Source of the DNA: Candidatus Bathyarchaeota archaeon
Lineage (GTDB): Archaea > Thermoproteota > Bathyarchaeia > 40CM-2-53-6 > RBG-13-38-9
Length of the DNA: 48,958 bases
Direction: 5' to 3'
NCBI GenBank assembly: GCA_018396915.1
Contig: JAGTRD010000009.1
Coordinates: 1-48,958, forward strand
The notes under the pieces are model-generated. The model made no database searches. It worked only from the letters and a program-made list of their open reading frames with translations, and had not been told where the DNA came from. This document shows, piece by piece, positions 26,579 to 45,173 of the stretch. Numbering within the stretch: the first letter of the stretch is position 1; each line of letters begins with the position of its first letter. The position numbers and the translations under genes were made by a program.

Positions 26579-26590
26579 ATTTATTTATAA
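26579..26590 (+). promoter_or_regulatory. TATA-like box of the tRNA-Tyr gene
   Basis: ATTTATTTATAA lies about 33-44 bp before the mature tRNA 5' end. A start site about 25 bp downstream falls near 26610, giving a leader of roughly 10-13 nt. The 240 bp between the zinc-ribbon gene and this tRNA hold no other recognisable gene. Confidence 0.55.
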
Positions 26591-26610: not shown

Positions 26611-26622
26611 GGTCCCGCGGAT
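26611..26622 (+). other. tRNA-Tyr leader duplicating the acceptor strand
   Basis: The leader contains CCCGCGG (26614-26620), an exact copy of tRNA positions 1-7 (26623-26629), two bases before the real copy. GGTCCCGCGG (26611-26620) is complementary over 10 bp to CCGCGGGACC (26831-26840), which is the whole 3' acceptor strand plus discriminator and CC. The leader can therefore compete with the true acceptor stem. Confidence 0.6.
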
Positions 26623-26631
26623 CCCGCGGTA

Positions 26632-26654
26632 AGATGTATGTGAACATCCCGTAA
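26632..26654 (+). other. tRNA-Tyr intron 1 (23 nt, position 9/10)
   Basis: Central helix: exon GCGG (26626-26629) pairs with intron CCGT (26649-26652). The bulges are TA^A (26630-26632) and AA^G (26653-26655), cut after the second base. The inner stem is GATGT/ACATC with a 6-nt loop. Bulge-helix-bulge geometry; the outer helix is weak. Confidence 0.88.
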
Positions 26655-26676
26655 GCTCAGCCTGGTAGAGCTTCCG

Positions 26677-26700
26677 ATCACGTGTAAGACGTGAGGAGAC
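26677..26700 (+). other. tRNA-Tyr intron 2 (24 nt, position 30/31)
   Basis: Central helix: exon CTTC (26671-26674) pairs with intron GGAG (26695-26698). The bulges are CG^A (26675-26677) and AC^G (26699-26701). The inner stem is TCACG/CGTGA with a 7-nt loop. Its removal is needed to complete the anticodon stem. Confidence 0.9.
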
Positions 26701-26707
26701 GCTGTAG

Positions 26708-26755
26708 AGTTGCACCCACGGTGCAGCCATCCAGCCTATCAGGCTAAAAGTAGAA
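26708..26755 (+). other. tRNA-Tyr intron 3 (48 nt, canonical position 37/38)
   Basis: Central helix: exon CTGT (26702-26705) pairs with intron GTAG (26750-26753), two pairs being G-U. The bulges are AG^A (26706-26708) and AA^A (26754-26756). The interior carries two hairpins, TGCACC/GGTGCA (26711-26725) and AGCCT/AGGCT (26733-26745). A one-base shift of the borders would give the same mature sequence, but the helix fits 37/38 best. Confidence 0.83.
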
Positions 26756-26771
26756 ACCGGAGTGTCGCTGG

Positions 26772-26794
26772 AGGGGCCATATGGACCCGGCGAA
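26772..26794 (+). other. tRNA-Tyr intron 4 (23 nt, position 53/54)
   Basis: Central helix: exon CGCT (26766-26769) pairs with intron GGCG (26789-26792). The bulges are GG^A (26770-26772) and AA^T (26793-26795). The inner stem is GGGGCC/GGACCC with one G-A mismatch and loop ATAT. It must leave before the T-stem can form. Confidence 0.87.
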
Positions 26795-26800
26795 TTCAAA

Positions 26801-26824
26801 ATAGGCACATGCAGCCTATGAAAC
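26801..26824 (+). other. tRNA-Tyr intron 5 (24 nt, position 59/60)
   Basis: Central helix: exon TTCA (26795-26798, the T-loop itself) pairs with intron TGAA (26819-26822). The bulges are AA^A (26799-26801) and AC^T (26823-26825). The inner stem is TAGGC/GCCTA with a 7-nt loop. The outer helix is the T-stem, available only after intron 4 is gone. Confidence 0.9.
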
Positions 26825-26961
26825 TCCGGCCCGCGGGACCATACTAAACCATGCTTCAATATTGAATACTCGATTTCATCTCTGCTCCTTCTTTGGGGCA
26901 TGTTTAATATTGTGTTGCCGACAGATATTTGGGCTGTCCCTGCACTTCAGGATGTGATGAA

Positions 26962-41931: not shown

Positions 41932-42023
41932 TGGCGGGCCCGGTGGGATTCGAACCCACGATCTCCGGCTATCCTCCATTTGACCGAAGGCCAGCATCTT
42001 AATCCTGACTAGACCACGGGCCC
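41932..42023 (-). tRNA. tRNA-Arg (anticodon UCG) with a 13-nt intron
   Basis: Minus strand. The acceptor GGGCCCG pairs with CGGGCCC, discriminator G, CCA encoded (41932-41934). The D-stem is GTCT/AGAT, the anticodon stem CTGGC/GCCGG, and the T-arm GTGGG-TTCGAAT-CCCAC. The mature anticodon loop is CTTCGGA. The intron (41971-41983) lies at 37/38. Exon CTTC pairs with intron GAGG to form the central helix; with only 7 nt left the inner stem is almost absent, a relaxed bulge-helix-loop. Confidence 0.92.
41971..41983 (-). other. 13-nt intron of tRNA-Arg (position 37/38)
   Basis: TCAAATGGAGGAT on the minus strand. Bulges GG^T and AT^A are cut after the second base, as in the tRNA-Tyr introns. Confidence 0.82.
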
Positions 42024-44594: not shown

Positions 44595-45173
44595 GTGTAT
44601 AAGCACCCTAAATATGAGTATCTGCCTCCGAGAAATGTTATCGGTGAGGGAATGTTGATAGAGACCTTCGACGCATATTACCGTAATGGTACAGTATATA
44701 TCCCATATGTTGAGGGTGCGACGGATCTTCTTGAGAGGGGTTTCGGAACCCTCAAAGGGAAGAAGCTCATCCTCTCACCATACGAATGTTTCTTCTTGAG
44801 AGAGAAGGGTCGGATAAGTGTCGTCGAGAAGGATACAGGTAGAAGCCTGAGCCTGAAAGAGCTAGTCAGAAGATATTCGAGGAAGAGGAGGGAGATATGG
44901 ATAAAATATTTGGTTTACAGGGATTTGAGGGAGAGGGGATACATTGTCAGGGAAGCATCTAAGGTTGACTTCGAGATCCACGGAAAAGGCGCCGAGAGGA
45001 GACTGATATCGATAGTGTATGAGGGTGGTGAAGCAAACATTAAGGAGCTGGAGAGCCTCCAGCGATATGCAGCTGAGCAGAGGAAGGAGCTTGTTCTGGC
45101 GGTTATAGATAGGAGAACAGACCTGGTATACTATTCTGTTGAGGAGATGACTTTCAATAAGAATCAGGTCTGA
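44595..45173 (+). CDS. endA: tRNA-splicing endonuclease EndA-family subunit, probably structural
   Basis: A 192-residue protein with both EndA parts: an N-terminal domain (LSPYECFFLREKGRISVV) and the nuclease-fold domain (KYLVYRDLRERGYIVREASKVDFEIHGKG, RYAAEQRKELVLAVIDRRTDLVYYSVEEM). The catalytic Tyr expected after F-x-V is replaced by His (FEIH), and the catalytic His about ten residues on is missing (ERRLIS). The Lys (QRK) is kept. It therefore looks like the non-catalytic beta subunit of a heterotetrameric endonuclease. It is 11 bp from hisS, so co-transcribed. Confidence 0.83.
   Translation: MYKHPKYEYLPPRNVIGEGMLIETFDAYYRNGTVYIPYVEGATDLLERGFGTLKGKKLILSPYECFFLREKGRISVVEKDTGRSLSLKELVRRYSRKRREIWIKYLVYRDLRERGYIVREASKVDFEIHGKGAERRLISIVYEGGEANIKELESLQRYAAEQRKELVLAVIDRRTDLVYYSVEEMTFNKNQV

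Follow-up and report, generated by a model that had tools for sequence, protein, structure and literature searches.

A five-intron tRNA-Tyr(GUA) gene in a family of Bathyarchaeota and the cis strands that may stage its splicing

Analysis of a 48,958-nt stretch of Bathyarchaeota DNA (hereafter the window), contig 9 of a draft genome (1.63 Mb, 42 contigs, about 96% complete), revealed a tRNA-Tyr(GUA) gene interrupted by five introns. It is a confirmed member of the known class of multi-intron archaeal tRNAs and a record-setting one, because the maximum number of introns per archaeal tRNA is stated to be three (PMC4033280, PMC8450103, PMC3218864, PMC3293823) and five are thus beyond the described range. 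To judge from sequence comparison, the locus is very probably the functional, and apparently single-copy, tRNA-Tyr(GUA) gene of this species, since seven related genomes share this architecture, with exons that are conserved and introns that co-vary. An earlier note, made from the letters of the window, had called five introns exceptional and had put the upper range at three or perhaps four, usually in Thermoproteales; the exception stands, three is the figure that the cited papers bear out, and the host here is a bathyarchaeote. The gene architecture claimed in that note also stands, and to it are now added a leader strand complementary to the tRNA 3′ end, a pairing between D-loop and intron, and the weakness of one splicing motif.

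Exons, introns and their junctions

The gene lies on the forward strand, with a TATA-box-like element, TTTATA (26584-26589), 39 nt upstream of exon 1. Its exons (9, 22, 7, 16, 6 and 17 nt) and introns (23, 24, 48, 23 and 24 nt) alternate as follows, the bulges of each bulge-helix-bulge (BHB) motif being given in brackets and the cuts by a caret. Exon 1 (26623-26631, tRNA positions 1-9) is followed at 9/10 by intron 1 (26632-26654; GCGG[TA^A]GATGT...ACATCCCGT[AA^G]), and exon 2 (26655-26676, positions 10-30) at 30/31 by intron 2 (26677-26700; CTTC[CG^A]TCACGT...ACGTGAGGAG[AC^G]). Exon 3 (26701-26707, positions 31-37, with the anticodon GTA at 26704-26706) precedes intron 3 (26708-26755; relaxed BHB CTGT[AG^A]...GTAG[AA^A]) at 37/38, the only canonical position of the five. 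Exon 4 (26756-26771, positions 38-53) is separated by intron 4 at 53/54 (26772-26794; CGCT[GG^A]GGG...CCCGGCG[AA^T]) from exon 5, the six nucleotides TTCAAA of T-loop positions 54-59 (26795-26800), and intron 5 at 59/60 (26801-26824; TTCA[AA^A]TAGGC...GCCTATGAA[AC^T]) leads to exon 6 (26825-26841, positions 60-76), in which CCA is encoded.

Joined, the exons give without mismatches a 77-nt tRNA-Tyr(GUA) with a full cloverleaf, 21 of 21 stem pairs intact, the anticodon GUA, the pair C1-G72, A73 and CCA; ARAGORN calls the spliced sequence tRNA-Tyr(gta), 77 nt. Coordinates, lengths and intron positions had all been given in the earlier note, as had the non-canonical placement of four introns and the six-nucleotide exon in the T-loop, and all of them were recovered by an independent dynamic programming parser that combines a tRNA-Tyr template with a BHB score (threshold lowered at 37/38). 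The five-intron parse scored 141.5, with 53.6 as the next best value among 80 bins sampled from the two strands of the window; loci read on the wrong strand, which served as a null, gave scores of at most 54.5. Shifted intron borders that would yield an identical product have worse BHB scores and were rejected. The exons are collinear, so that the gene is not permuted (no 3′ half upstream of the 5′ half), and all are on one strand within 219 bp, so that it is not a split, trans-spliced tRNA.

The note had further assigned to every intron a 4-bp helix between two 3-nt bulges. This is correct for 9/10, 30/31, 53/54 and 59/60, where the helix is strong and the BHB score was reached by 0 of 5000 intron shuffles each with the exons fixed; at 37/38 the motif is relaxed and its score was reached by 202 of 5000 such shuffles. 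The warning that an ordinary tRNA scan may miss the gene proved justified: run on the whole window, ARAGORN called two other tRNAs and missed the unspliced gene, and within 2.3 kb spanning it the Rfam tRNA model had no match at E ≤ 10. Elsewhere in the window (41932-42023, minus strand), what ARAGORN calls a tRNA-Glu(ttc) reads, from its anticodon stem-loop, as a tRNA-Arg(UCG) with a short 37/38 intron. In the genome as a whole, many of the tRNA loci catalogued (L143-L168) carry non-canonical introns and RF00005 gives 20 matches only, so that much of the tRNA set would escape standard annotation.

Leader complementarity and early introns

The leader of the tRNA-Tyr gene contains a segment, GGTCCCGCGG (26611-26620, plus strand), which is complementary to the 3′ end of the tRNA at 26831-26840 (CCGCGGGACC) and which we propose to be a surrogate acceptor strand, or decoy. 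With a decoy defined by at least 7 Watson-Crick pairs between leader and tRNA 3′ end, for which shuffled leaders give a chance rate of 2.2%, one was found in 15/15 non-redundant tRNA-Tyr genes with the 9/10 intron versus 5/81 without it (P = 1e-13, kinship ignored). In this genome and its relatives, the corresponding counts for tRNA-Lys are 8 of 11 genes with a 9/10 intron, three having the intron and no decoy, versus 0 of 14 without (P = 1.5e-4, kinship ignored), and 21 of the 22 tRNA-Asn genes with an 8/9 intron have a decoy. The P values overstate independence because the genomes are related; yet three isotypes and several families agree. The genome under study itself provides illustrations: a tRNA-Lys(CUU) on contig 29 has a 9/10 intron and a tRNA-Asn(GUU) on contig 34 an 8/9 intron (isotypes read by hand), and in both the leader is complementary to the gene's own 3′ end. 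The strongest TATA-like site has its median at -41 where the 9/10 intron is present and at -29.5 where it is absent, in what is a noisy scan; such a shift upstream is consistent with the decoy being transcribed.

The decoy may be required because the BHB of the 9/10 intron needs exon 1 positions 4-7, which are otherwise paired with positions 66-69. In RNAfold predictions for this gene, the probability of the central helix at 9/10 is 0.98 when the leader is included and 0.00 when it is left out, and a leader of at least about 10 nt is needed for the motif. Removal of the leader lets the acceptor stem take over in all 15 tRNA-Tyr loci with the 9/10 intron; with it, the probability of the central helix ranges from 0.11 to 1.00 across these loci and is below 0.35 in three. 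The leader of tRNA-Asn is predicted to displace the acceptor stem, but no rise of the central BHB helix is predicted there.

We lean, with some reserve, towards the view that cis decoys stage splicing in Bathyarchaeota, the leader holding the 3′ end for the 8/9 or 9/10 introns of tRNA-Tyr, tRNA-Lys and tRNA-Asn, and the 37/38 intron of tRNA-Tyr clamping the D-loop. In the tRNA-Tyr precursor, the 10-nt leader would pair with the tRNA 3′ end in place of exon 1, and exon 1, freed in this way, would form the BHB of the 9/10 intron rather than the acceptor stem. According to RNAfold, exon 1 would lose to the decoy even once splicing is complete, so that one has to assume that the leader is removed or the strands are actively exchanged; RNase P, a helicase or tertiary folding would have to resolve the pairing.

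Another possibility, which concerns the leader decoy only and which we hold to be rather unlikely, is that the leader pairing blocks premature end processing (by RNase P or 3′ trimming) or is the passive relic of a tandem duplication that took place at the 5′ end. Bacterial RNase P is inhibited by leader pairing with the 3′ RCCA (PMC9433436), and a short TGGT that pairs with ACCA is found in the leader of many genes that lack early introns. Five tRNA-Tyr genes, moreover, have a decoy and no 9/10 intron; these decoys are possibly relics of intron loss or put to some other use. Neither version readily accommodates the tight tie of the decoy to 8/9 and 9/10 introns in three isotypes, its absence from tRNA-Lys genes without the intron, its conservation while the surrounding leader diverges, or the dependence of the 9/10 BHB of tRNA-Tyr on it in the folding predictions, and it is this evidence that makes us prefer a decoy that assists splicing. 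That the leader copy is an alternative exon 1 was rejected: the junction cannot give U8, and the copy is incomplete in two loci (L040 and L047).

The canonical intron, relatives and copy number

The helix at 37/38 is formed by CUGU and GUAG with two G.U pairs, the intron-side helix is almost absent, and in none of the splicing intermediates tested does RNAfold give the central helix a probability above 0; one locus, L015, also has a mismatch in this helix. With so poor a BHB it could be argued that the gene, though genuine, contains four introns and a differently bounded 37/38 region, with an alternative acceptor or a non-standard cut. We find this very improbable: only the present boundaries restore the 7-nt anticodon loop and the 5-bp stem, and an intron is located at exactly 37/38 in nearly every parsed relative. 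We accept these boundaries because the exons are invariant and in many relatives the intron ends with ACAG, a perfect partner for CUGU, and two further bases. The idea that the 37/38 intron stands in for the Psi35 enzyme is not supported, and the genome has a TruD/Pus7 homologue.

Inside the same intron, the segment CTATCAGGCT (26736-26745, plus strand) is complementary to the D-loop and can pair with the D-arm segment AGCCTGGTAG (26659-26668, plus strand), with covariation across the class. This pairing is a new feature. Over 95 loci, the pair of D position 17 with intron 3 is C-G in 42, U-A in 47, U-G in 5 and broken in 1; where it is U-A, the hairpin that the intron forms by itself is weakened while the D-loop pairing is kept. 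As a guess, the 37/38 intron may keep the D-loop clamped until its own removal. A partnership of this clamp with the 30/31 intron was rejected, as the pairing is equally present with and without 30/31.

Comparison with related genomes, proposed as a check in the earlier note, showed the five introns at the same positions in seven genomes of one Bathyarchaeota family, this one included, i.e. the members where a tRNA-Tyr gene was found (two others, 74-80% complete, gave no locus). Between any pair of the seven, the exons are identical at 75-77 of 77 positions, whereas the identity of the introns goes down to about 55%. On either side of the bulges, the helices persist through compensatory changes of both strands, such as GATGT/ACATC to GGTGG/CCACC, GGG/CCC to GAGC/GCTC, and TAGG/CCTA to TAAGG/CCTTA.

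The exact exon-2 pattern occurs in 113 of 257 genomes of the class, and the tRNA-Tyr loci parsed class-wide have between one and five introns, which occupy six positions in all (9/10, 30/31, 37/38, 44/45, 53/54 and 59/60). An intron at 37/38 is present in nearly all of them, and among loci with a clean parse the 53/54 intron is seen only alongside 59/60, the two together producing the six-nucleotide T-loop exon; this co-occurrence suggests ordered intron gain. Four loci (L015, L030, L031 and L032) were mis-parsed at one intron or more, and the parse of L015 was then mended manually. When a collection of 84,980 species genomes was scanned with a pattern, 12 tRNA-Tyr loci bearing the 9/10 intron came up, four of them in genomes labelled Thaumarchaeota, Nitrososphaeria or simply archaeon.

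A second, intron-poor tRNA-Tyr, the absence of which the earlier note had wanted ascertained, was not found in this ∼96% complete genome by the exact exon-2 pattern, by BLAST with the locus or by a tRNA-Tyr covariance model. A candidate on contig 17 (position 23354), with a loop containing TGTAC, was rejected after hand reading as a tRNA-Thr(UGU) with 30/31 and 37/38 introns. Ordinary housekeeping genes flank the tRNA-Tyr gene, with UvrB, HisG and a 5-FTHF cyclo-ligase family protein encoded on its upstream side and OsmC on the downstream side. While a draft in 42 contigs might hide the true tRNA-Tyr elsewhere, perhaps in its missing 4%, and leave here a decayed or unspliced pseudogene, we judge this most improbable in view of the nearly invariant exons amid diverged introns, the intact stems, the lack of another tRNA-Tyr in the genome and the multi-intron orthologues throughout the class.

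Splicing and relation to known systems

The window also encodes a β-like (structural) subunit of the tRNA-splicing endonuclease (192 aa; 44595-45173, plus strand), next to the histidyl-tRNA synthetase gene HisRS; it is degenerate and, by eye, without the motifs of the catalytic subunit. An α-like subunit of 183 aa, closest to the solved endonuclease chains of S. tokodaii and A. pernix, is elsewhere in the genome (match at contig 8, 22818-23075). At gene level, catalytic and structural subunits are thus on two separate genes, as in an (αβ)2 host. This would fit the α2β2 type, which is associated with non-canonical introns (PMC4090602). Such a two-subunit endonuclease would cut each of the five introns at its BHB, and the presumed tRNA ligase RtcB would join the six exons into the 77-nt tRNA. 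Maturation of the precursor is probably staged; we infer cleavage, ligation, their order and the final displacement of the decoy.

Multi-intron tRNAs of Thermoproteales (Pyrobaculum, Thermofilum) have at most three introns per gene according to Sugahara 2008 as relayed in PMC4033280, PMC8450103 and PMC3218864; the Bathyarchaeota gene has five, conserved within a family of another lineage, and leader decoys in addition. The Asgard Atabeyarchaeia and Freyarchaeia are likewise intron-rich, more than half of their tRNA genes being multi-intron and often non-canonical (PMC11291895, 2024); the main text of that paper gives no per-gene maximum, and more than three are possible in that different lineage. 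In Thermofilum pendens, tRNA-Tyr(GUA) is, as here, disrupted at 59/60 and has a canonical intron (PMC3218864), but the gene is permuted, with its 3′ half upstream, whereas here the exons are in order and 59/60 holds an ordinary intron. The split tRNAs of Nanoarchaeum equitans (PMC3491384, PMC3293823) likewise use extra complementary flanking RNA to aid assembly for BHB splicing; there it joins two transcripts, whereas the cis leader described here pairs with its own 3′ end and competes with exon 1. A search of the open-access literature, where absence is no proof, gave no prior report of Bathyarchaeota tRNA introns, of a five-intron tRNA or of such leader pairing.

With this gene, five replaces three as the number of introns described in one archaeal tRNA, and the condition is stable and family-wide; since living relatives have one to four, both gain and loss of introns can be followed one position at a time. 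As ordinary tRNA finders miss such genes, the tRNA sets of these genomes may be under-annotated. As a cis feature, the leader decoy is new and open to test; it may account for the splicing of early introns, and its presence in three early-intron tRNA families suggests a general answer to the problem of a motif that has to form against the mature fold. If this is true, placeholder strands would account for the formation of several BHB motifs in an RNA that would otherwise fold straight into the cloverleaf.
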